From contig JAPLCF010000030.1 of NCBI GenBank assembly GCA_026392355.1, forward strand, positions 186,001 to 250,000: DNA of 64,000 bases, given 5' to 3'. The notes beneath the pieces were generated by a model. The model worked only from the letters and a program-made list of their open reading frames with translations. It was not told the DNA's origin and searched no databases. Within the stretch, counting starts at the first letter, position 1. Each line of letters begins with the position of its first letter. Shown here in pieces: positions 12,559 through 31,657 of the stretch. The position numbers were made by a program, and so were the translations under genes. The DNA comes from Actinomycetota bacterium (GTDB taxonomy: Bacteria > Actinomycetota > Thermoleophilia > Gaiellales > F1-60-MAGs149).

Positions 12559-12576
12559 GCGGTACTCTGGGTGGAT

Positions 12577-14178
12577 ATGCGACGTCCGCTGCTCCTCGCG
12601 CTGCTTGCGCTGCTCATCCTGCCGAATGCCGCCGGTGCCATCACCTCACGCATCATTGGTGGGAACGTGGCGTCGATCGCCGACTGGCCGTCGACCGTAG
12701 CCCTCGAGACGTCGTACGGCTCGCAGTTCTGCGGTGGCTCGCTCGTCGCGCCTCAGTGGGTGCTGACGGCAGGGCACTGCAAGCTGTATCCGAGCAGCCA
12801 GATCCGCGTGCGCTCCGGGAGCGCATCATTGACCAGCAGTACGGGGGAGATCCTCACCGTTCAGCGCCAAGTGCGTCATCCCAACTACAAGCAGATCGTG
12901 CCTGGCGCTCCGCGGGACGACCTGATGCTTCTGCGTCTCGCCACACCGAGCTCGTCGCCGGCGATTGCCCTGGCCAACACGCAGCAGCCGCCAGCGACCG
13001 GCACCCTGCTCCACGTCGCCGGGTGGGGATCCACCAGCTACAACGCGGCCAACGACTCCTTCGGTGCTGCCTCGAGCGAATTGCGCGCTGTTGCCGTACG
13101 CGTCAAGCCGTCGCAGCAGTGCGTCGATGCCTACGGCGCGAAGGCGTTCTACCCGCAGGACATGGTGTGTGCGTCGCTGCCGCACAAGGATGCGTGCGCC
13201 GGTGACAGTGGGGGACCCCTCGTGGATCGGCCGGGCTCCGCAGGCGTGTTGATCGGCGTCGTGTCGTGGGGTACCGGGTGCGCAATGGCCCGCTACCCCG
13301 GCGTGTATTCCCTCGTCGCACACAACCGCTGCTGGGTGGAGTCAACGATCGGGCCGCCGGGCGCGCCGAGCGCCGTCGCAGTGGCGCAGGCAGACAGCTC
13401 CTTGATCGTCGATTGGCAGTGGACGCGACCGTGCGCAGACGCGCCACTTCCCTCTGCCTATCGCATCCGGGTTACCGAGACCGGTCAGACGATTGACGTG
13501 GCCGGCGGGGATCGTCGCGTGGTCCTCACGGGCCTCGCCAACGGGACGACCTACACCGTCACCGTCTCTGCAGTCAACGAGAACGGCGAGAGCGGACCGC
13601 TCGGCCTGAGTGCCGTCCCGGGACCGAACTTCGTCGCGACGCAGCGTTCCGCGTGGACCGGATACAAGACCGGACGCATCACCTTCACGCTCGCAGCGCA
13701 CGGTGCACCGCTGCAGTGGCGCGCCGAAGCGGGAACCGGACTGCGCTTCAACGCGCGCCCGTGGCAGACCGTGGCGCCGAGCGAGGTGCCTCAAGTGCTG
13801 ACCGCCGATCTGGAGGGACTCCCCGTCGGCAAGGCCACAGATGTCCGCATCGTGGTCACCGACGGTACGACGATGACCAGCGCTGAGCGCACGCAATTGC
13901 CCGCGCCAACGAAGCCCGCGCCGATCAGTGGCGTCAGCATCCGCGGTACCGGCGACGTGGGTCGTGCGGTTCGCTGCGACCTCGGCCGCTGGGCCGGAAC
14001 GCGGCCGTTTGTCATTGCTCGGCAATGGCTGCTGGCCGGCCGCGCGATTGCCGGCGCCTCCGACCGGACGTACACGCCAAACGCGGCACAGAGCGGCGAG
14101 ACGTTGGCGTGCCGCGTGACGGTAAGCGGGGCCGGTGGGATCACGAAGCGGACCACCCCCGGCGTGACCGTCAACTAG
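12577..14178 (+). CDS. Secreted trypsin-like serine protease with fibronectin type III and Ig-like tail
   Basis: Exported S1-family endopeptidase. The signal peptide LLLALLALLILPNAAGA is at residues 4-20. The mature protease begins at IIGGNVAS with IIGG activation-type termini; the triad is His in VLTAGHC, Asp in DDLMLLRL and Ser in DACAGDSGGPL. Residues about 258-350 form a fibronectin type III domain (NGTTYTVTVSAVNENGESG), and the last 90 residues form an Ig-like repeat (GRWAGTRPFVIARQWL, LACRVTVSGAGG). ATG at 12577 is preferred to GTG at 12571 because it puts the basic residues right before the hydrophobic core. Its stop shares the bases CTAG with the convergent malic enzyme gene. Substrate unknown. 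Confidence 0.9.
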   Translation: MRRPLLLALLALLILPNAAGAITSRIIGGNVASIADWPSTVALETSYGSQFCGGSLVAPQWVLTAGHCKLYPSSQIRVRSGSASLTSSTGEILTVQRQVRHPNYKQIVPGAPRDDLMLLRLATPSSSPAIALANTQQPPATGTLLHVAGWGSTSYNAANDSFGAASSELRAVAVRVKPSQQCVDAYGAKAFYPQDMVCASLPHKDACAGDSGGPLVDRPGSAGVLIGVVSWGTGCAMARYPGVYSLVAHNRCWVESTIGPPGAPSAVAVAQADSSLIVDWQWTRPCADAPLPSAYRIRVTETGQTIDVAGGDRRVVLTGLANGTTYTVTVSAVNENGESGPLGLSAVPGPNFVATQRSAWTGYKTGRITFTLAAHGAPLQWRAEAGTGLRFNARPWQTVAPSEVPQVLTADLEGLPVGKATDVRIVVTDGTTMTSAERTQLPAPTKPAPISGVSIRGTGDVGRAVRCDLGRWAGTRPFVIARQWLLAGRAIAGASDRTYTPNAAQSGETLACRVTVSGAGGITKRTTPGVTVN

Positions 14179-19869: not shown

Positions 19870-20475
19870 ATGTCCGGTCAGCCGCTGCTGATCGGGGTCA
19901 CCGGCGCCATTGGTGCCGGCAAATCGAGTGTGCTCCAGGCGTTTGCCCTGCACGGGTGCGCCTGCCTGAGTGCGGATGCCGTCGTGCACACGCTGTATCA
20001 CCAGAGCCGTGTGCGCGACGTCGTCGTCACGCGATTTGGCGAGCAGGTGCTTGACCCAAGCGGCGAGATCGACCGTGTCACGCTTGCGCGGCTGGTGTTT
20101 GGTGATGCCAATGCGCTCGAGTGGCTCGAGGAGTACTTGCATCCACTGGTCGACGAGCACATGCGCACGTGGCTCGCCGAGGCACAACTGCGCGAGCCAG
20201 CGCCGCCACTTATCGTCTACGAGTCTCCCTTGCTGTTCGAGGCCGGTTTGGCGTCGCGCTTTGATCGGACGCTTGTGGTGACGGCCGACGATGCCGTCCG
20301 CAGGGCGCGTGTCGGAGCACGGGGTGGGCTTGAGCGCCTGGCCGAGCGAGAGGCACGGATGTGGACGATTGACGAGCGCTGTGCCGCAGCGGACGACACG
20401 ATCGACAACAGCGGCACGCTTGAGGAACTCCGGGACACCGTCGACGCGTACATCGAGCGATACGCTGGGGCGTGA
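19870..20475 (+). CDS. coaE: Dephospho-CoA kinase
   Basis: Last step of coenzyme A synthesis: phosphorylates the ribose 3'-hydroxyl of dephospho-CoA. P-loop GVTGAIGAGKSSV at residues 9-21, substrate motif LSADAVVHTLY, and the lid region RARVGARGGLERLAEREARM. Length 201 is typical. It begins 9 bases after rpsA and its stop overlaps the transglycosylase start, continuing the polA-rpsA-coaE run. Confidence 0.95.
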   Translation: MSGQPLLIGVTGAIGAGKSSVLQAFALHGCACLSADAVVHTLYHQSRVRDVVVTRFGEQVLDPSGEIDRVTLARLVFGDANALEWLEEYLHPLVDEHMRTWLAEAQLREPAPPLIVYESPLLFEAGLASRFDRTLVVTADDAVRRARVGARGGLERLAEREARMWTIDERCAAADDTIDNSGTLEELRDTVDAYIERYAGA

Positions 20476-21041
20476 TGCGCCGTGTCTTCGGGTTCATTCT
20501 CCTCGCGCTCGTCGCGTTCGGCGCGTTCGGACTCTACGTCGCGAACGCTGAACCCGATTGGTTCCTCCGGATGCGCTACCCGCTGGAGTATCGCGCCATC
20601 ATCGATACTCACGCCGATAACTACGCACTCGAGCCGTCGCTGCTCGCCGCCGTCATCTACACGGAGTCGAAGTTCGATCCGCGTGCCGAATCGGCCGCGG
20701 GCGCCATCGGCCTGATGCAACTGCTGCCCGACACCGCACAAGGCATCGCTGATCACACGGGCGGAGGAAACTACACGACGGCGGATCTCTACGACCCCGA
20801 GCTCAACATCCGGTATGGCGCGTGGTATCTCGCGCGCCTCCAGAAGAAATACCGGGACCATCCGCAGTCGCTCGACCTGGCCTTGGCCGCCTACAACGCG
20901 GGGCAGGGCAACGTTGATGAATGGGTTGCGGCCACCGCAGACGGTGCGCGTGTGCGTGTTCCCTTCCGTGAGACACGCGACTACCTCAAACGCGTGCACC
21001 GCCTGCAGGGCATCTACGCGGACGCATACGGGCTACGCTGA
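20475..21041 (+). CDS. Membrane-anchored lytic transglycosylase (SLT domain)
   Basis: Cleaves peptidoglycan between MurNAc and GlcNAc with anhydro-sugar formation. An N-terminal anchor (FGFILLALVAFGAFGLYVA) precedes a compact goose-lysozyme-like SLT domain: catalytic Glu in LAAVIYTESKFD, the motif AAGAIGLMQLLPDTA, the segment NIRYGAWYLARL, and AAYNAGQGNVDEW. Length 188. TGATG overlap with coaE. This small SltE/MltE-like type acts in cell-wall remodelling; no secretion apparatus or phage genes are nearby. Confidence 0.92.
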   Translation: MRRVFGFILLALVAFGAFGLYVANAEPDWFLRMRYPLEYRAIIDTHADNYALEPSLLAAVIYTESKFDPRAESAAGAIGLMQLLPDTAQGIADHTGGGNYTTADLYDPELNIRYGAWYLARLQKKYRDHPQSLDLALAAYNAGQGNVDEWVAATADGARVRVPFRETRDYLKRVHRLQGIYADAYGLR

Positions 21042-21045
21042 CACG

Positions 21046-21726
21046 ATGCTGCTGCAGCCACGCGAGATCGATCGTCTTCTGCTCTTCCAGGCCGCCGAGC
21101 TGGCGCGCGCGCGGCGCGCTCGCGGCCTCCTTCTTAATGCGCCAGAGGCGATCGCGATTATCTCCGACACCGCCTGCGAAGCGGCTCGGGACGGCGCCAC
21201 GCACGCCGAGGCGGTTGCCGCGGCGCACGCTGCCCTCGGTCCCGCCGATGTTCTACCGGGCGTACCGTCGCTGGTTGGCCACATCGAGGTCGAGGCCTTG
21301 TTTACCGACGGTTCCCGTCTCTTGCTGATTATCGAACCGCTTGGTCCCGGCACTGCTGACGGACCGGGAGCGGTCCTGGCCGCTGAGGTCGAGCACGCAC
21401 CGCTCGTCGACCCGGTCGAGCTCGAAGTCACAAGCACTGCGCTCGTTCCGATCGCGATCACGAGCCACTGGCACTTCTTCGAGGCGAATCGCCTGCTCGA
21501 CTTCGACCGCGCAGCGGCATGGGGGATGCGGCTCGTGATCCCGACCGGTAGCACCGTCCGTTGGGGACCGGGAGAAACGCACCTCGTGCAGCTGCGGCCG
21601 TTTGCCGGCAAGCGCATCGCCTACGGCTTTTCCGGCCTCGTCAATGGCCCGCTCGATGCCGACGGGGCCAAAGCAGCCGCACTCGCCCTCGCAGCCGAGC
21701 GCGGGTATCTGGGAGCAACCGCATGA
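21046..21726 (+). CDS. ureAB: Urease gamma-beta fusion subunit (UreAB-type)
   Basis: Structural subunit of a urease-like complex. Residues 1-100 match the gamma subunit (PREIDRLLLFQAAELARAR, LLNAPEAIAIISD, DVLPGVPSLVGHIEVEA), and residues about 110-226 match the beta subunit (ITSHWHFFEANRLLDFDR, RLVIPTGSTVRWGPGE, IAYGFSGLVNGPLD). Gamma-beta fusions occur in actinobacteria and Helicobacter. The start ATG is 4 bases after the previous stop; a longer upstream frame exists but overlaps the transglycosylase. Sequence is clearly more divergent than ordinary ureases, as in its partner UreC. No ureD, E, F or G is present in the window. Confidence 0.88.
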   Translation: MLLQPREIDRLLLFQAAELARARRARGLLLNAPEAIAIISDTACEAARDGATHAEAVAAAHAALGPADVLPGVPSLVGHIEVEALFTDGSRLLLIIEPLGPGTADGPGAVLAAEVEHAPLVDPVELEVTSTALVPIAITSHWHFFEANRLLDFDRAAAWGMRLVIPTGSTVRWGPGETHLVQLRPFAGKRIAYGFSGLVNGPLDADGAKAAALALAAERGYLGATA

Positions 21727-23396
21727 GCCTCGACCCGCAGGCCTACGCCCGGGTCTACGGACCGACCGTTGGCGACCGCGTTCGCCTCGGTGACACGAGC
21801 TTGGTGATCGAGGTCGAGGCCGACGATCAGGAGCGCGGTAATGAGGTCCTGGGTGGCTTTGCGAAGACAGCACGGGATGGCCTGATGGCGCAGGCCACTC
21901 TCGACGCAGTCGAGATCGCCGTCACCCAAGTGCTGGCCGTGGATCCGATCCTCGGAGTGCGCAAGACCGCGATTGGCATCACCGACGGACGCATCGTGGC
22001 GATCGGCCGTGCCGGCAATCCCGACATCATGGACGGCGTTGATGTCGTGCTGGGTACCGACACCGCGATCGTCTCGGGCGAGGGGCTGATCGCTACCGCC
22101 GGCTCGATCGACACCCATGTGCACCTCCTCAGCCCGCGCATCTGCGATCAGGCACTGGCCGCGGGCTTTACGACGCTCGTGATCCAGGACTACGGTCCGG
22201 TCTGGAACCTCGGGACGAATCCCGTGTGGGCGCTCCGCCACGTGCATGCCGCGCTGGAGCAGACGCCGCTCAACACCCTCATGCTTGCGCGCGGCTCGTC
22301 GAGTCGACCGGAGCCCCTGGAGCGAATGCTGGCTGCGGGAGCGGCGGGTCTCAAGATCCACGAGGATGTCGGCGCCAACGCGACAGCACTCGATATGGCA
22401 CTGCGCGTGGCAGACGCGCATGACGTTCAGGTCTGCATGCACACCGATGGCCTCAACGAGGGCCTGCTCGTGGACGACACGCTCCGCGTGATCGACGGGC
22501 GCACCATCCACGCGTACCACATTGAGGGGACCGGTGGCGGTCACGCTCCCGACGTCATGCGGCTGGCCGGCGAACCGAACGTCCTCACCTCATCGACCAA
22601 TCCGACGTTTCCCTACGGCATCAACACGGCTGCCGAGCACGCCGCCATGGTCGAGCTGGTCCACGTGCTGCGGGAGGATCTGCCGGGCGACCATCAACTC
22701 GCTCTCGACCGCGTGCGCCCCGCCACCATGGCTGCCGAGGATGTGCTCCACGACCTCGGGCTGATCCACATGACGTCCAGTGACAGCCAGGGCATGGGGC
22801 GCATCGGCGAGACCCTCCGCCGGACCTTCCAGCTGGCGAGCGTGATGAAGGATGCCCGCGGTGCTGACGGCCCGAACGACAACGGGCGGGTGTTGCAGTA
22901 CCTCGCCAAGACAACCATTAACCCGGCCATCGCCCATGGCATGGGGCACGAGATCGGCTCGCTTGAAGTGGGCAAGTTGGCCGACATCGTGCTGTGGGAG
23001 CCCGGCTGGTTCGCCGTCAAGCCGTTTCTTGTGCTCAAGGCTGGCTTCCCCACGTGGGGCGCGGTCGGTGAGCCGAACGCCTCCACGGCGTTTTCCCAGC
23101 CCACGCAGGTGGCGGCGCAGATCGGCGGTATCGGCAATGCCCCGGCGCGCGTGTCGGTGGCCTTCACGAGCACAGAGGCGTTGCGCTCGGGCGGCGCCGC
23201 CGAGTTGCCGACGAGCAAGCGCCGCGTGGCCGTCGCCGGGACCCGCGCAATCGGTGCCCGAGACATGGTGCGCAATAGCCGGATTGCCGCGGTGCGCGTC
23301 GATCCCGGCACCCATGCCGTGACCGTCGACGGAGAAATCGTCCAAACTCCACCCGTCCGAGATGTTCCACTCTCGGCGCTGCACCTCCTCGGCTAA
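21723..23396 (+). CDS. ureC: Divergent urease alpha subunit-like amidohydrolase (UreC-like)
   Basis: Catalytic subunit of a urease-family enzyme, 557 residues. All bimetal ligands are conserved: H132 and H134 (THVH), carbamylated K211 and H213 (GLKIHED), H240, H266 and D354 (SSDSQGMGR); the catalytic flap His is H314. Differences are marked: the canonical MVCHHL flap reads ELVHVL, so the flap Cys is Val, and the region normally GGGTGPA...ATTCTPG reads IQDYGPVWNLGTNPVWALR. Active-site shape is therefore altered while the nickel chemistry could remain. It overlaps ureAB (ATGA) and glycerate kinase (TAATG). Either a divergent urease or a paralogue acting on a urea-like compound; I cannot decide from sequence. 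Confidence 0.85.
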   Translation: MSLDPQAYARVYGPTVGDRVRLGDTSLVIEVEADDQERGNEVLGGFAKTARDGLMAQATLDAVEIAVTQVLAVDPILGVRKTAIGITDGRIVAIGRAGNPDIMDGVDVVLGTDTAIVSGEGLIATAGSIDTHVHLLSPRICDQALAAGFTTLVIQDYGPVWNLGTNPVWALRHVHAALEQTPLNTLMLARGSSSRPEPLERMLAAGAAGLKIHEDVGANATALDMALRVADAHDVQVCMHTDGLNEGLLVDDTLRVIDGRTIHAYHIEGTGGGHAPDVMRLAGEPNVLTSSTNPTFPYGINTAAEHAAMVELVHVLREDLPGDHQLALDRVRPATMAAEDVLHDLGLIHMTSSDSQGMGRIGETLRRTFQLASVMKDARGADGPNDNGRVLQYLAKTTINPAIAHGMGHEIGSLEVGKLADIVLWEPGWFAVKPFLVLKAGFPTWGAVGEPNASTAFSQPTQVAAQIGGIGNAPARVSVAFTSTEALRSGGAAELPTSKRRVAVAGTRAIGARDMVRNSRIAAVRVDPGTHAVTVDGEIVQTPPVRDVPLSALHLLG

Positions 23397-24496
23397 TGCC
23401 CATCGCACTCTGCGCACCCGACAAGCTCCGCGGCGCCCTCGACGCGCATGAGGCCGCCGCTGCGCTGGCGCAGGGCGCGCGCGACGCGGGCTGGGACGCG
23501 TTCGAGCACCCGCTCGCCGACGGCGGCGAGGGCACCTGCGACGCGATCGTGCGCGGCCGCGGAGGGGAGCGCGTGATGGTGCGCACCCGCGATGCGATTG
23601 GTCGTCCCCGCAAGGCCATGCTCGGCGTCCTGCCTGACGGGACGTGCGTGGTGGAGGGAGCAGAGGCGATCGGTCTCATGCACATCCCGCGCAACCGACG
23701 TGATGTGATGCGCGCCACCAGCGCCGGCATCGCACCGCTCGTGCTCGAGGCACTCGATCGCGGAGCGCCACGCCTAGTGATCGGTCTAGGCGGCTCAGCG
23801 ACCACCGATGGTGGGCTCGGCCTCCTGATCGGCTTGGGCCTACGCGTCTACGACGCCGAAGGTGGTCTGCTGCGCGGACGAGGAATGGATCTGCCGCACG
23901 TCGCCGGGATCGATCTCACCGGTCTCGACCCGCGACTCGAGCGCACTGAGTTGATCGTTGCTGTCGATGTCGAGAGTCCGCTCTCTGGCCCGCTGGGCGC
24001 CGCCTGCGTCTTCGGACCCCAGAAGGGCGCCACGCCCGAGCAGGTTGCCGTGCTCGACGGTGGCCTCGCTCGCCTCGAAGAGCTGTACGGCGATCGCGCC
24101 CGCCGCCCGGGAGCAGGCGCCGCAGGTGGCCTCGGTGCCGCGTGCTTCCTACTCGGCGCAGAACCGATTCCGGGAGCCGAGCTCGTGATGCGCGAGACGG
24201 GCTTTGCGGCACGGCTCGCGCAGGCCGACATCGTGCTGACGGCGGAGGGCTCCGTCGATGCCCAGAGCGCTGCGGGCAAGACCGTGGCTCGCGTCGCCAC
24301 GGCCAGTCGCGCCGCGAACACGCCGTGTGTGATCTTCGGAGGACGCGTCGAAGACGACGTGCAGGCGCTCTATGACGCGGGCGCAGCCGCCGTTCTTGGC
24401 ATCGGACGCGGAGCGCGGCCGATTCGCGACGCTTTGCGCTTCAGCGCCGACGACCTCCGCGCAGCCGCACGCGCGGTGTGCACGCTGCGCTCCTGA
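23396..24496 (+). CDS. Glycerate kinase (GlxK/GarK family)
   Basis: Phosphorylates glycerate to a phosphoglycerate, linking glyoxylate and serine catabolism to glycolysis. Family landmarks: APDKLRGALDAHEAAAAL at the N-terminus, PLADGGEGTCDAI (about residues 39-51), GLGGSATTDGGLGLL (about 130-144), and the C-terminal AEGSVDAQSAAGKTV. Length 366. The start overlaps the ureC stop, implying co-transcription with the urease-like genes; a shared route such as purine or glyoxylate/ureide breakdown is a possible but unproven explanation. Convergent with ispH, 4 bases apart. Confidence 0.92.
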   Translation: MPIALCAPDKLRGALDAHEAAAALAQGARDAGWDAFEHPLADGGEGTCDAIVRGRGGERVMVRTRDAIGRPRKAMLGVLPDGTCVVEGAEAIGLMHIPRNRRDVMRATSAGIAPLVLEALDRGAPRLVIGLGGSATTDGGLGLLIGLGLRVYDAEGGLLRGRGMDLPHVAGIDLTGLDPRLERTELIVAVDVESPLSGPLGAACVFGPQKGATPEQVAVLDGGLARLEELYGDRARRPGAGAAGGLGAACFLLGAEPIPGAELVMRETGFAARLAQADIVLTAEGSVDAQSAAGKTVARVATASRAANTPCVIFGGRVEDDVQALYDAGAAAVLGIGRGARPIRDALRFSADDLRAAARAVCTLRS

Positions 24497-25533: not shown

Positions 25534-26304
25534 ATGCGCACCGCCCGACTGTCTGCGCTCGTTGCGCTTGTACTCCTCGCCCTGCTGATCGTGACGCAGC
25601 TGATCTACCCTCAGGTGCCGGAGTCGTGGACGATCCCGATGACGGCGGTCACCGTCTTCCTGTTCCTCGGTGCCTCCGTAGCGGCCGCGTGGAACCGCTC
25701 GGGCCCCCGCTACGCACTGTGCCTTGCGGGTCTCGCGTTTCTCGTGGGTCTGCTCTCCGAGATCTCAGGCGTACACACCGGGATCCCCTTCAGCACCTAC
25801 TCGTACACCAGCGCGCTGCAGCCCCAACTTGCCGGTGTGCCAATCGTCATCCCTCTGGCCTGGGCGATGATGGCCTACCCGGCGTGGCGCATCGGCGAGC
25901 TGATCGGGTCGACGCCGCTGACACGGGCGCTGGTGGCGGCCGGGGCGCTGACCGCCTGGGATGTCGCGCTCGATCCACAGATGGTTGGCCTTGGCATCTG
26001 GGTCTGGCCCAATGGTGGCTTCTACGACGGCATCCCGCTGGTCAATTTCTTGGGCTGGTTCGCAGTCGGGTTTGTGCTGTTCGGGGTGTGGGCGCTCCTG
26101 GAGCGGGACCAAACCCATCCCGGCGATGACGTGCTCTCGGACCTGCTCGGGCCCGCGCTCTTCATCTGGACGTGGATCGGTGAGACGGTGGCGCACGCGC
26201 TGTTCTTCGAGGGCTACGTCGTCGCGCTGGCTAGCTTCATCGCCATGGGGTTGTTCGCGATTCCCGCCATGCTGCGACTACGCGTTGTGGAGCGGTGGCG
26301 ATGA
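25534..26304 (+). CDS. Carotenoid biosynthesis membrane protein, CruF/bisanhydrobacterioruberin hydratase family
   Basis: A 256-residue protein with about seven membrane segments. The family pattern is visible in GLLSEISGVHTGIPF followed by YSYTSALQPQLAGVP, IPLAWAMMAYPAW, ALDPQMVGLGIWVWP and GIPLVNFLGWF, as in CruF-type carotenoid 1',2'-hydratases, which add water to the end of acyclic or monocyclic carotenoids. The ATGA overlap with the next gene, a CrtI-type desaturase, supports a carotenoid role. Which carotenoid is made cannot be told here, since phytoene synthase and cyclase genes are not in the window. Confidence 0.82.
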   Translation: MRTARLSALVALVLLALLIVTQLIYPQVPESWTIPMTAVTVFLFLGASVAAAWNRSGPRYALCLAGLAFLVGLLSEISGVHTGIPFSTYSYTSALQPQLAGVPIVIPLAWAMMAYPAWRIGELIGSTPLTRALVAAGALTAWDVALDPQMVGLGIWVWPNGGFYDGIPLVNFLGWFAVGFVLFGVWALLERDQTHPGDDVLSDLLGPALFIWTWIGETVAHALFFEGYVVALASFIAMGLFAIPAMLRLRVVERWR

Positions 26305-27767
26305 CCCACGTCGTCGTGATCGGTGCAGGGGTCGGCGGTCTCGGTGCTGCGGTCCGCCTGGTCGGGGCAGGCTGCGACGTGACCGTCCTTGAAGCGGCGA
26401 AGACGATCGGCGGCAAGCTCAACATCGAGGCGAGCGACGGGCACACGTTCGATACGGGCCCGTCGCTGATGACCATGCCGTTCACCCTTGCCGACACGCT
26501 GGCTGCTGCCGACGTGCGCCTCGACAACGTGCTTGAGCTTCTCCCCGTTGAACCGATCTGCCGGTATCGGTGGCACGATGGCTCGCGCCTCGAAACGTGG
26601 AGCGATGACGATCGGACGGCCGCTGAGCTAGAGCGTTTCGAACACGGAGCGGGACAGGAGTGGCACGCCCTGCTCGAGCAGGGGCGTCGCACGTGGGAGA
26701 TGTCGCTCCCGCTGTTCCTGTCCGAACCCGTTGGCTCGTTCATCGACATCGCGCGACGTAGTGGAAAGCCAATCGACCCGCGCGACATTCAGGCACACGT
26801 GACGCTGTCGCAGATCGCACAGCGACGATTTCGCGACCCGCGGCTGCAGCAGGTGATCGAACGCTTCGCCACGTACGCCGGTGCGGATCCGGCGCGCGCA
26901 CCCGGCACCCTGTCGGTGATCCCCTACACCGAGACGGCGTTCGGCGCCTGGCATCCGCGCGGCGGCATGCATCGTATCGCCGAGGTCCTGCGTGACGTGA
27001 TCGTTGAGCGTGGGGGGACCGTTCGGACGGGTACAACCGTCACCCGTGTCCTGATTGACGGCGGGGTTGCCACCGGTGTCGAGCTTGCTGACGGCGAGCG
27101 CATCGACGCCGACGCGGTCATCTCCAACGTGGATGCCTCGCACCTCTACGGCTCGCTGCTCGATGCCCCAGACGAGGCGCGCCGAGTCGCGGACACCCCG
27201 CAAAGCGTCTCCGGTTTCGTTCTCATGCTTGCGATGGAGGGGAAGACCCCCGAGCTCGCGCATCACAACATCTGGTTCCCACGCGACTACCGCGCGGAGT
27301 TTGCGGATGTCTTCGATGACCCGCAGCCACCCCATGACCCGGCCATCTACGTGTGCAACCCTGCGGTGACGGACCCGTCGTGCGCGCCCGACGGCGACGA
27401 GTCCTGGTTCGTGCTCGTCAACGCTCCCCGCAATGGCCCCGTGGACTGGGATGCACTCGGCGAGCGCTATCAGGAGCACCTGCTTGACCGACTGGACGCG
27501 TTGGGACTCGAGGCGCGAGCACGAGCAAAGTGGATCGTCCGCCGCACACCCGCCGATCTGGAGCGCTTGACCGGTGCACCGGGCGGTGCCATCTACGGCA
27601 CGGCGTCGATGGGCCCGCGTTCTGCCTTCCTGCGGCCGCGCAACGAATCCCCCGTGGCCAAGCGGCTCTACCTCGCCACCGGCAGTGCCCATCCCGGCGG
27701 CGGCGTGCCGCTTGTCCTGCTGTCCGGCAAGATCGCAGCCGACCTCGTCCTGCGCGACTGCGGCTGA
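26301..27767 (+). CDS. Phytoene desaturase-family FAD oxidoreductase (CrtI/CrtD-like)
   Basis: Membrane-associated carotenoid dehydrogenase or isomerase. The N-terminal FAD-binding motif is VVVIGAGVGGLGAAVRLVGAG with EAAKTIGGKLN; the region DTGPSLMTMP follows, and the C-terminus carries the bacterial desaturase signature ending YLATGSAHPGGGVPLVLLSGK. Length 488. The start ATG overlaps the CruF-like stop. In several organisms a hydratase of the CruF type works with a 3,4-desaturase (CrtD), so a CrtD-like role on a hydroxylated acyclic carotenoid is the best inference; ordinary phytoene desaturation remains possible. Confidence 0.85.
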   Translation: MTHVVVIGAGVGGLGAAVRLVGAGCDVTVLEAAKTIGGKLNIEASDGHTFDTGPSLMTMPFTLADTLAAADVRLDNVLELLPVEPICRYRWHDGSRLETWSDDDRTAAELERFEHGAGQEWHALLEQGRRTWEMSLPLFLSEPVGSFIDIARRSGKPIDPRDIQAHVTLSQIAQRRFRDPRLQQVIERFATYAGADPARAPGTLSVIPYTETAFGAWHPRGGMHRIAEVLRDVIVERGGTVRTGTTVTRVLIDGGVATGVELADGERIDADAVISNVDASHLYGSLLDAPDEARRVADTPQSVSGFVLMLAMEGKTPELAHHNIWFPRDYRAEFADVFDDPQPPHDPAIYVCNPAVTDPSCAPDGDESWFVLVNAPRNGPVDWDALGERYQEHLLDRLDALGLEARARAKWIVRRTPADLERLTGAPGGAIYGTASMGPRSAFLRPRNESPVAKRLYLATGSAHPGGGVPLVLLSGKIAADLVLRDCG

Positions 27768-27813
27768 GCATCGGCAATCTGCGAAACACTGACGTAGCGT
27801 CCGCCTCCCGCTG

Positions 27814-30078
27814 ATGATCCGATTCGCCTCTTTCTCCGACCGCTTCCGCTGGCCCATCGTCGCGGCTTGGGTGGTGGTGATCGCGCTCGGCGCCTACGCC
27901 AGTGCCGGGCTCAACGACCTGCTGTCGAACCGCTTCGACATTCCCGACACGGAATCGACCGCGGTGCTGAACGTCCTGCAGCAGGACTTCGGCCAGCGCG
28001 GCGACTCGACCTTCGTCCTCGTCGTGCAGACCCAGGACGGCAAACCGGCGACACCTGCGCTGGTGGTGGAAACGACAGCCGCGGCCACCCGCGCCGCAGA
28101 TGCACTCGGCGACGCGACCGTCGGGCTCGTGCAGACCAGCGACGATCTTGCGTATGCCTCGATCGGGACGACGCTTGAGCCCGGGAAGGCGCAGGTCCGT
28201 GTGGCCGCCATGCGCGAGGCGATCGGCACCGTACCCGGCGCCACCACCTATCTCTCTGGGCAGACCGCGATCAATCGTGATCTCCAGCCGATCGTCAACG
28301 AGGATCTCGTCCGCGGCGAACTGATCGCCATCCCGATCGCGATCATCGTCCTGCTCTTCATCTTCGGAACGCTGATCGCTACCTTCGTGCCGCTGGCCTT
28401 CGCGCTCGCAACGGTGCCGACGACCCTCGGCATCGTGTGGATCGCGGCCCACGAGATCAACATGGCGATCTACGTCACCAACCTCGTCACGCTGATTGGC
28501 ATTAGCATTGCGATCGACTACTCACTGCTCGTGGTCTATCGCTTCCGCGAGGAGATGCTCGCGATCCAACGGCGGAAACTCGGCCCCGAGGGGGATGCGC
28601 GGCGCGTACCCCTGACGCGCGCGGAGGTGCGCGAGGCGCTCGATCCCACCATGGAATACGCCGGACACGCTGTGGTGTTCTCTGGCCTGACGGTCGCCGT
28701 CGGACTGGCGGGCCTGATCCTGCTGCCCCTGCCGTTTATCCGCTCGATGGGTGTGGGCGGCATGATCATCCCGCTGATTTCTATTCTGGCCGCCGTCACG
28801 CTGCTGCCAGCGCTTCTGTCGCTGTGCGGCGTCTGGCTCGGCCGCATCCGGGTCGTTCCCATGCGTGTGCTCGACGCGCGCACCGACGACACCAGCGGCT
28901 TCTGGGTCCGGCTGTCGAACTCGATCATGCGTCGCCCATGGCCGTTCCTTGTCGTGGGCTCCGCGCTCCTGATCGCGTTGGCGATTCCCACGTTCTGGAT
29001 CTCCATGACACCCGGCTCAAACAAGGGGCTGCCGACTCAGAGCGAGGCCGTGCAGGGCATGTTGCGGCTGGAGCGCTCCGTCGGCGAGGGCACGCTCGCT
29101 CCCAACCAGATCGTCGTCAATACCGGGAAGCCCGCTGGCGTCTGGGCGCCGGCCGAGCTCGCCGCGATCGGTCGCCTCGCCACGGAACTGCGCGCCGATC
29201 CCGCCATGAGCACACAGCCCACAGCCGTGGCCGCGGTCTCCGATCTCGTCGCCAAGGGCGACACGCCTGAGGCCCGCAAGCAGGCCATCGCCGGCGGTCT
29301 CGTCGACGCCTCGGGGCAATACGCACTCGTCCTGGCCGCATCGCGCGATGCCTACGGCTCGGAGGAGGCGCAGGAGCAGGCGCGCCGCATCCGCAGCACG
29401 CTCGTCCCCGACGCCGCGTTCCCTGCCGGCACGACCGTCCTCGTCGGTGGTGGCCCCGCCGCGGGCGTTGACTTCATCGACCAGATCTACGGGTCGTTCC
29501 CGTACCTGATCCTGTTCGTGCTTAGTGTGTCGTTCATCCTGCTGATGCGCGCCTTCCGGTCGGTACTGCTCCCGTTGAAGGCCGTGATCCTGAACGTGCT
29601 CAGCGTGGCCGCCGCGTACGGCCTGCTGGTGATGGTCTTTCAGTTCGGGTGGGGAGAATGGGCTGGACTGCCGCAGACCGGACAGATCGAGGCCTGGATC
29701 CCGATCTTCCTGTTCGCCATGCTCTTCGGCCTCTCGATGGACTACGAGGTCTTCCTCGTGACGCGGATGCGCGAGCTGTACGACACCGGCCTCTCCAACG
29801 AGGCGGCGGTAGCGCAGGGACTGCAGCGCACCGGACGCATCGTCTCCGCTGCGGCCATCATCCTCGTGGCCGCTTTCGGGGGATTCCTGCTCGGCTCGCT
29901 CGCTGCCTTCCAACAGTTCGGCCTCGGACTCGCCGCCGGCATCCTGATCGACGCCACGTTGATCCGCATGATCCTCGTTCCCGCGTATATGCGGATCGCC
30001 GGTGACGTCAACTGGTATCTCCCCAACTGGCTCGCGCGCATCCTGCGCGTCGAGCCGTCGCCCATCCGGCATTCCTGA
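27814..30078 (+). CDS. MMPL-family RND transporter
   Basis: Inner-membrane proton-driven exporter, 754 residues, two repeats of the MMPL fold. Membrane segment 1 is at residues 13-33, an extracytoplasmic loop of about 140 residues follows, then a cluster of five segments (for example LIAIPIAIIVLLFIFGTLIA and IGISIAIDYSLLVVYRF with the conserved DY pair). The second half repeats this, with FAMLFGLSMDYEVFLVTRM near the C-terminus. Actinobacterial MMPL proteins export lipids, pigments or drugs. The position 46 bases after a carotenoid desaturase suggests, without proof, carotenoid or lipid trafficking. Confidence 0.93.
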   Translation: MIRFASFSDRFRWPIVAAWVVVIALGAYASAGLNDLLSNRFDIPDTESTAVLNVLQQDFGQRGDSTFVLVVQTQDGKPATPALVVETTAAATRAADALGDATVGLVQTSDDLAYASIGTTLEPGKAQVRVAAMREAIGTVPGATTYLSGQTAINRDLQPIVNEDLVRGELIAIPIAIIVLLFIFGTLIATFVPLAFALATVPTTLGIVWIAAHEINMAIYVTNLVTLIGISIAIDYSLLVVYRFREEMLAIQRRKLGPEGDARRVPLTRAEVREALDPTMEYAGHAVVFSGLTVAVGLAGLILLPLPFIRSMGVGGMIIPLISILAAVTLLPALLSLCGVWLGRIRVVPMRVLDARTDDTSGFWVRLSNSIMRRPWPFLVVGSALLIALAIPTFWISMTPGSNKGLPTQSEAVQGMLRLERSVGEGTLAPNQIVVNTGKPAGVWAPAELAAIGRLATELRADPAMSTQPTAVAAVSDLVAKGDTPEARKQAIAGGLVDASGQYALVLAASRDAYGSEEAQEQARRIRSTLVPDAAFPAGTTVLVGGGPAAGVDFIDQIYGSFPYLILFVLSVSFILLMRAFRSVLLPLKAVILNVLSVAAAYGLLVMVFQFGWGEWAGLPQTGQIEAWIPIFLFAMLFGLSMDYEVFLVTRMRELYDTGLSNEAAVAQGLQRTGRIVSAAAIILVAAFGGFLLGSLAAFQQFGLGLAAGILIDATLIRMILVPAYMRIAGDVNWYLPNWLARILRVEPSPIRHS

Positions 30079-30133
30079 CAAACCTCAGCAGCCCCGGTAC
30101 TGTTCGGTCATCGCACGGACCCGGGGAGGGGAC

Positions 30134-31657
30134 ATGAGCACAGACCTTGACTACATCATCGTCGGCGGTGGCACCGCTGGCTCGGTGATTGCCGCACGGC
30201 TGACCGAGAACCCCGACATCAAGGTGGGTCTGATCGAGGCGGGACCGGATGATCGCCCCTACGACGAGGTGCTGAAGATCAAGCGCTGGCTCGAATTGCT
30301 TGAGAGCGATTTCGACTACAAGTACACGACGCAGATTCAGCCGCGCGGCAACTCGCACATCGTGCACAGCCGCGCCAAGGTGCTGGGCGGCTGTTCCTCG
30401 CACAACACGATGATCTGGTTCAAACCCCTGCCAGGCGACTGGGATGACTGGGCCAAGCAGGGCGCCGCCGGCTGGGAAGGCGCCAACATGGAGCAGTACT
30501 ACGCCAAGCTCCCGAACAAGCACCAGATCGTGCCCGAGCAGGACCGTGATCCGATCCTCCCCGATTGGATCGAGTCGGCCGTGGCCGCCACCGGGGTGCA
30601 GAAGTCGCCCGATTGGAATGCCGAGCCGTTCAGTGACGGCGCCGGGTTCCTTGACGTTGCGTACGACCCCGACACGGGCATCCGCTCCTCGGCCAGCGTG
30701 TCGTACCTGCATCCGATCATGGACACGCGCGAGAACCTCCACGTGATCCTGAACACGCGTGCGCTACGAGTAAACCTCACCGGTGATCGCGCCACGTCGG
30801 TCGACTGCCTCAACGAACTCACCGGCGAGCGCCTTACGTACCACGCTGCCAAGGAGATCATCCTGTGTGCCGGCGCGATCGACTCGCCGCGCCTGCTGCT
30901 GCTGTCGGGGATCGGCCCCGCCGACGACCTGCGCGAACTCGACATTGCGGTGCAGCACGACCTGCCGAGTGTGGGTGGCGAGATCCTCGACCACCCCGAG
31001 TCGATCATCATGTGGGAGCTGAAGAAGCCGCTCGGTCCACAGACGGTGATGGGCGCTGACTGCGCGCTGTTCGTCAACCGCCTCAAGCACGACGATCGCC
31101 CGGACCTGATGTACCACACGTACCAGCTCCCGTTCACACTCAACACCGAGCGGCTCGGCTATCCCGTGCCGGAGAACGTGATCTGCATGACGCCGAACAT
31201 CCCGCGCACCAAGTCACGCGGGCGCCTGTGGCTCCTGTCGAACAACCCCGACATCAAGCCGGCGATCGACTTCGGCTACTTCACCGATCCCGACGGCTAC
31301 GACGAGCAGACGATCGTGGACGGGCTAGAGATCGCACGCGAGGTGGCCGCGACCGGCCCGTTTAAGGACTGGATCAAGCGCGAGGTCGCGCCGGGCCCGA
31401 AGATCACGACGCGCAAGGATCTGTCGACGTACGGACGCGCGGCGCATCACACGGTGTACCACCCGCTCGGCGGCTGCAAGATCGGAGCGGTTGACGACCC
31501 GACAACCGTGGTGGGGCCGGACCTGAAGGTGAAGGGCATTGACGGCCTACGCGTGGCCGACGGCGCGATCTTCCCGGCCCTGACGACGGTCAACCCCGTC
31601 GTGGGCGTCCACATGATCGGCGAGAAGTGCGCCGACCTGATCCTCACCGGGCAGTAG
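30134..31657 (+). CDS. GMC-family FAD-dependent oxidoreductase (choline/alcohol dehydrogenase-like)
   Basis: Flavoenzyme oxidising an alcohol substrate. The Rossmann motif DYIIVGGGTAGSVIAARL starts at residue 6; the GMC signature 1 region is AKVLGGCSSHNTMIWF (about 78-93) and signature 2 is GAIDSPRLLLLSGIGP. The catalytic pair is probably His in VYHPLGGCKIG and Asn in TTVNPVVGVHMIG. Length 507. The start ATG is preceded by a strong ribosome site (GGGGAGGGG); a longer upstream frame overlaps the transporter. No lipid, choline or betaine genes are adjacent, so the substrate is unknown. Confidence 0.9.
   Translation: MSTDLDYIIVGGGTAGSVIAARLTENPDIKVGLIEAGPDDRPYDEVLKIKRWLELLESDFDYKYTTQIQPRGNSHIVHSRAKVLGGCSSHNTMIWFKPLPGDWDDWAKQGAAGWEGANMEQYYAKLPNKHQIVPEQDRDPILPDWIESAVAATGVQKSPDWNAEPFSDGAGFLDVAYDPDTGIRSSASVSYLHPIMDTRENLHVILNTRALRVNLTGDRATSVDCLNELTGERLTYHAAKEIILCAGAIDSPRLLLLSGIGPADDLRELDIAVQHDLPSVGGEILDHPESIIMWELKKPLGPQTVMGADCALFVNRLKHDDRPDLMYHTYQLPFTLNTERLGYPVPENVICMTPNIPRTKSRGRLWLLSNNPDIKPAIDFGYFTDPDGYDEQTIVDGLEIAREVAATGPFKDWIKREVAPGPKITTRKDLSTYGRAAHHTVYHPLGGCKIGAVDDPTTVVGPDLKVKGIDGLRVADGAIFPALTTVNPVVGVHMIGEKCADLILTGQ

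Follow-up and report, generated by a model that had tools for sequence, protein, structure and literature searches.

Urease is generally treated as a single-substrate enzyme with a need for nickel and dedicated helper proteins. The locus described here raises the question of what a urease-like gene pair hydrolyses, and how its metal centre is filled, in an actinobacterial, Thermoleophilia-like genome where genes for the helpers UreD, UreF, and UreG were not found. The pair lies in a stretch of 64,000 nucleotides (the window) from a genome assembly of 2.4 Mb that is 93.7% complete, and its parts and immediate neighbours are as follows.

20472..21041, + strand: lytic-transglycosylase-like gene, directly upstream of ureAB and kept across the genus (operon context only)
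21046..21726, + strand: UreAB, the gamma and beta subunits of urease in one fused protein of 226 aa (bifunctional gamma/beta model NF009671, 266.8 bits, cut-off 243; PF00547 and PF00699)
21723..23396, + strand: UreC, a full-length open frame of 557 aa for a remodelled urease alpha subunit
22185..22220, + strand: remodelled active-site loop (QDYGPVWNLGTN, UreC residues 155-166), replacing GGGTGPA..ATTCTPG (alignment)
22659..22664, + strand: flap Val313, at the position of Klebsiella Cys319, and next to it flap His314 (His320), which is kept (alignment)
22782..22793, + strand: metal ligand Asp354 (Asp360) and Gly357 (Ala363) (alignment)
23396..24496, + strand: glycerate kinase (TIGR00045, 308.7 bits, cut-off 168)

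The start of ureC overlaps the stop of ureAB by 4 bases, and its own stop overlaps the start of the glycerate kinase gene by 1 base in the junction sequence; polA, rpsA, and coaE lie upstream of ureAB in the same direction (assigned by eye from their translations). Elsewhere in the window, positions 25534-31657 (+ strand) hold a carotenoid-type pair of a phytoene-desaturase-like oxidoreductase and a small membrane protein (by eye), together with a GMC oxidoreductase (Pfam) and what looks by eye like an MMPL-type exporter. At 12571-14178 (+ strand), amid housekeeping genes, lies a gene whose translation reads by eye as a secreted trypsin-like serine protease carrying additional C-terminal domains.

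The window UreC falls within the UreC superfamily, with N-terminal urease alpha and amidohydrolase domains (Urease_alpha PF00449, 116 bits; Amidohydro_1 PF01979, 171 bits) and the two-metal ligands. It scores 693 bits against PRK13207 (cut-off 354) and matches PDB ureases with E-values of ~1e-148. The residue comparison draws on an alignment of this protein to UreC from Klebsiella and Yersinia and to ~50 relatives; Klebsiella numbering is used below, with the window residue in brackets. The first-pass annotation, made from the letters alone, held that the metal ligands, the carbamylated Lys, the flap His, and Asp354 are kept, and this is what the alignment with Klebsiella UreC displays: H134 (H132), H136 (H134), K217 (K211), H246 (H240), H272 (H266), and D360 (D354) are all present, K217 being the Lys that is carbamylated in urease and that is predicted from the alignment to be so in the window protein. 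The catalytic residues H219 (H213), D221 (D215), flap H320 (H314), and R336 (R330) are likewise present.

The walls of the pocket have changed around this intact centre. The flap C319 is Val (V313), as had been read at first pass, and the stretch GGGTGPA..ATTCTPG, then described as normally invariant, is indeed replaced, Klebsiella GGGTGPAAGTHATTCTPG corresponding to IQDYGPVWNLGTNP in the window, a loop 4 residues shorter. The word invariant slightly overstates the case, since in three accessory-linked ureases (L104, L107, and L077) the loop is likewise altered and shortened and residue 363 is Gly, with the flap Cys kept. Four more positions differ in the window UreC (A363 to G, T249 to G, W222 to V, and T273 to I); neither these nor the upstream fused UreAB had been listed before. 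Across the alignment, the Cys319-to-Val and Thr249-to-Gly changes split all remodelled rows from all accessory-linked rows, the flap Cys change occurring in 0 accessory-linked ureases of the aligned set; Ala363-to-Gly and a shortened loop are seen in a few accessory-linked ureases too. Within the new loop, Q155, G158, P159, W161, G164, and N166 are invariant across 20 homologues, and ureC is under strong purifying selection, with a dN/dS between congeners of ~0.03-0.09 by a simple counting estimate. Gene decay or chance as the source of the changes is ruled out by the intact ligands, the invariant loop residues, and this selection.

In published structures of Sporosarcina urease, two carbonyls, from Ala170 and Ala366 (Klebsiella 167 and 363), hold the urea nitrogen that is bound to metal; the distal urea nitrogen, which points to the channel, is bound by the carbonyls of Gly280 and Ala366 (PMC7433671). 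Because these carbonyls hold the urea nitrogens, the changes in the window pocket would sit where a substituent on urea would go. An AlphaFold model, the structural check proposed at first pass, bears out the overall urease fold (pTM 0.81; the best PDB matches are ureases, with a TM of ~0.85) and has a mean pLDDT of 68; it is weak at the new loop, part of which falls below 50, so that the reading of the pocket draws on sequence and not on the model.

Against the urease-alpha equivalog TIGR01792, the window UreC scores 597.8 bits, below the cut-off of 680; other clade members score 498-632, and two accessory-linked controls 827 and 973. In a maximum-likelihood tree (loop columns left out; unrooted, with few non-actinobacterial sequences), a branch with an SH-aLRT of 97 groups 28 remodelled proteins, and a second, with an SH-aLRT of 100, groups the accessory-linked ureases, so that the phylogeny suggested earlier places the window UreC in a clade of its own, apart from accessory-linked ureases. 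The urease sequences of B. subtilis and H. mustelae stand outside both this tree and the residue comparison. The window pair belongs to the actinobacterial accessory-free ure(AB)C group, which includes Streptomyces SCO5525-5526. Family models name clade members urease subunit alpha, and a UreC-like gene is present in 12/12 congeners searched.

UreD, UreF, and UreG were found neither in the window genome (93.7% complete) nor in the 12 congeners searched, which speaks against these accessory proteins being coded elsewhere in the window genome. Across 61 genomes (the window's and 60 relatives), each of the three passes its cut-off in 3, the same 3 that carry canonical UreC. On each of the grounds tested, namely the TIGR01792 score, the flap Cys and loop, and the presence of UreD, UreF, and UreG, the window UreC falls outside the canonical urease equivalog. 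Genomes that we assign to Streptomyces from their size and gene order (Streptomyces-type below) hold both a canonical urease and the ure(AB)C pair. The genomes of family f16 (G067, G082, G097, G144, G166, G176, G186, G219, G281, and G302) encode UreC homologues whose loop is very short (ITAGF..EEP); UreD was not found in these genomes, and from this search they are possibly a third group without accessory genes.

The gene neighbours of the relatives point to ureido compounds, the class of product that deiminases and hydantoinases yield in place of urea. Outside the window's genus, an agmatine-deiminase-like gene adjoins the clade's ureABC in 19 of 24 readable loci, a count that omits two on contigs too short to tell. 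The linkage holds in 9/9 Streptomyces-type loci, in G013, G025, and L013 (= G678), and in 7/7 further clade loci from a class-wide search run after the idea arose; the five clade loci lacking such a neighbour are those of G275, G019, G028, G059, and G015. The deiminase gene may lie downstream of ureABC, upstream on the same strand, or divergently, and as at least three arrangements keep the genes together, chance is hardly a likely explanation. The linked deiminases match TIGR03380 below its equivalog cut-off, with the catalytic motifs kept and with a segment before the GHVD motif that is unlike AguA sequences over the cut-off. Within family f16, G067 and G281 show the linkage and G082, G166, G097, and G176 lack it, and no deiminase-like gene was seen in the flanks of accessory-linked ureases, most of these flanks being 1.5 kb only.

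Several clade loci carry other features beside the pair. In locus L093 (G408 contig 19), a single ure(AB)C pair is surrounded by 4 agmatine-deiminase-like genes in a span of 17 kb; judged by eye, two of these have twin-arginine-like N-termini, which suggests export. In four Streptomyces-type loci (L094, L091, L092, and L095), ureAB lies beside a divergent gene for a transporter of the NCS1 family (nucleobase:cation symporter), whose substrate might reveal the pathway. Near the ureABC-like genes of L099 (G059) are genes that resemble, by eye, a polyamine-type ABC transporter, with permeases and a PotD-like binding protein.

A second remodelled branch, represented by L103 (G060), L209 (G722), L210 (G663), and L211 (G628), is linked to hydantoinases. 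Its UreC proteins have the loop GYGGAFD or SYSGAFD, Gln362 changed to Met, and Asn251 changed to Gly. A hydantoinase/allantoinase-like gene lies directly upstream of ureAB in all four loci (4/4), and hydantoinase A and B genes follow ureC in two of them (2/4); such a hydantoinase/allantoinase-like gene also occurs some kilobases away in two accessory-linked loci. A 2-hydroxyacid dehydrogenase gene lies just upstream in two second-branch loci. The hydantoinase-like genes of the branch score below equivalog cut-offs, and because the linked deiminases and hydantoinases all fall below their own cut-offs, their products are not certain. Our literature search found no paper joining urease to hydantoinase operons.

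The window's own genus is arranged differently from the Streptomyces-type loci, which combine a deiminase-like neighbour with a canonical urease: a glycerate kinase adjoins the pair and no canonical urease was found. The kinase gene lies directly downstream of ureC in 10/10 readable loci of the genus by tblastn synteny, and also in one other genus (G015), and a deiminase homologue is absent from the 9/9 genomes of the genus tested. Its coupling to ureC is a weak hint that the substrate could be a ureido acid yielding glyoxylate; as proof of ureidoglycolate it was rejected. The window genome codes for two agmatinases over the curated cut-off, enzymes that release urea, and holds no match over the cut-off to the urea importer UrtA, so that urea import by this route was dropped. 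With the deiminase absent, two agmatinases present, and no UrtA, an actual urease working on internally made urea is a strong contender in this genus, where a ureido-hydrolase reading would rest on the relatives and the shared pocket. The earlier suggestion of a different urea-like substrate gains indirect support from the TIGR01792 score, the separate clade, the missing UreD, UreF, and UreG, and the relatives' neighbours, with the plain urea from the two agmatinases weighing on the other side.

We propose, giving it about an even chance, that UreAB-UreC is a urease-fold enzyme that matures by itself and hydrolyses N-substituted ureas. It would be a two-metal hydrolase that matures without UreD, UreF, or UreG and converts an N-substituted urea (R-NH-CO-NH2) to amine, CO2, and ammonia, instead of or better than plain urea. 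Since all ligands and His219, His320, Asp221, and Arg336 are kept, the chemistry at the metal site would be expected to be that of urease. With a shorter loop, no flap Cys, and Gly for Ala363, the pocket would be more open at the channel-facing urea nitrogen, and R could be accommodated there. The neighbouring deiminase would supply the ureido compound in Streptomyces and in many Thermoleophilia, for example N-carbamoylputrescine from agmatine, and in the second branch a hydantoinase/allantoinase-like enzyme would do so. Observed here are the gene anatomy, the separate clade, the absence of helper genes, and the neighbour linkages; maturation without helpers, the kind of substrate, and the wider pocket belong to the proposal.

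The main rival, and a strong one, is a genuine but unusual urease, acting on urea made internally by agmatinases and acquiring its metal without the known helpers, with pocket changes that tune kinetics only; we regard this as a substantial possibility, though short of probable. All urea-catalytic residues are kept, as this explanation expects, and the window genome offers the two agmatinases; the adjoining glycerate kinase, moreover, needs no ureido substrate. There is also precedent in the B. subtilis ureABC genes, which have no accessory genes and very low activity (PMC8600894, citing Kim et al. 2005). Harder to reconcile with a genuine urease are the Streptomyces-type genomes, which keep the pair alongside a canonical urease with its helpers, and the deiminase and hydantoinase neighbours of the relatives, which make no urea. 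The new loop is conserved, residues conserved in canonical ureases have been lost, and there is no UrtA importer over the cut-off. Ureolysis-proven members sharing the substitutions, named at first pass as a refutation of an altered substrate or kinetics, were looked for and none were found.

A non-nickel urease, for example one with iron as in Helicobacter mustelae UreA2B2, could be combined with either substrate reading, and the absence of helpers would then reflect the metal, not the substrate. The lack of UreD, UreF, and UreG is in keeping with this, as is the appearance among the fold matches of the iron urease 3qga; 3qga is not the nearest match, however, and the ligands show nothing that separates metals, and we hold such an enzyme to be improbable. 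A catalytically dead homologue with a structural or regulatory role, which the lack of accessory genes and the changes at several pocket positions might suggest, is very improbable given that no metal ligand or catalytic residue has been lost, that selection is strongly purifying, that the new loop is conserved, and that the gene is present in every congener searched.

Returning to the proposed hydrolase of N-substituted ureas, the pair shares with canonical nickel UreABC (Klebsiella and Sporosarcina) its subunits, fold, metal ligands, and catalytic residues, and differs in the pocket loop, flap Cys, Ala363, Thr249, the lack of UreD, UreF, and UreG, and a score below the TIGR01792 cut-off. With the Streptomyces ure(AB)C genes SCO5525-5526 it has in common a fused UreAB and a UreC in a cluster without accessory genes; Streptomyces-type UreC is 57-59% identical to the window UreC and has the same Cys-to-Val, Thr249-to-Gly, and Ala363-to-Gly changes and a related loop. 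Clusters of ure(AB)C genes only have been described in S. coelicolor and S. avermitilis (PMC2492869), and a second paper counts SCO5525-5526, by annotation only, among urea-utilizing genes and gives SCO5527 as an arginine-decarboxylase pathway homologue (PMC3293853). Literature on SCO5525-5527 yielded annotation mentions only, and a functional study was not found; the 'SCO5526-SCO5524' of one paper are described there as nrdABS and have no bearing on ure(AB)C. The ure(AB)C genes are thus already known, and the pocket signature and linkages appear to be unreported in the literature searched.

B. subtilis UreABC and H. mustelae UreA2B2 resemble the window pair in having structural genes without dedicated helpers, the latter being an iron urease; we know of no deiminase or hydantoinase linkage for either. 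AguB and the N-carbamoyl-amino-acid hydrolases offer another likeness, functional and inferred only, in the proposed reaction and the operon position, that is, carbamoyl removal after a deiminase or hydantoinase. AguB is nitrilase-like and unrelated in protein family to UreC. No AguB over the cut-off was found in 40 genomes; displacement of AguB by ure(AB)C, or a missing carbamoylase, is nonetheless not proven, because AguB-like amidases of ~260 bits are present in Streptomyces-type genomes, and it was dropped as a proven reading.

More tentatively, at somewhat less than even confidence, a widespread branch of the urease fold may not be urease at all, being instead a self-maturing, metal-dependent substituted-urea hydrolase that replaces carbamoylases after deiminases or hydantoinases, with a glycerate-linked version in the window's genus. 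If true, this would change the genome-based reading of urea use across a large actinobacterial branch, in which helpers can be missing and substituted ureas may be the substrates. It would also provide an accessory-free system for studying the assembly of a carbamylated-lysine metal site and would supply a missing step in agmatine-type and hydantoin catabolism, and the operon linkages make the substrate question directly testable.
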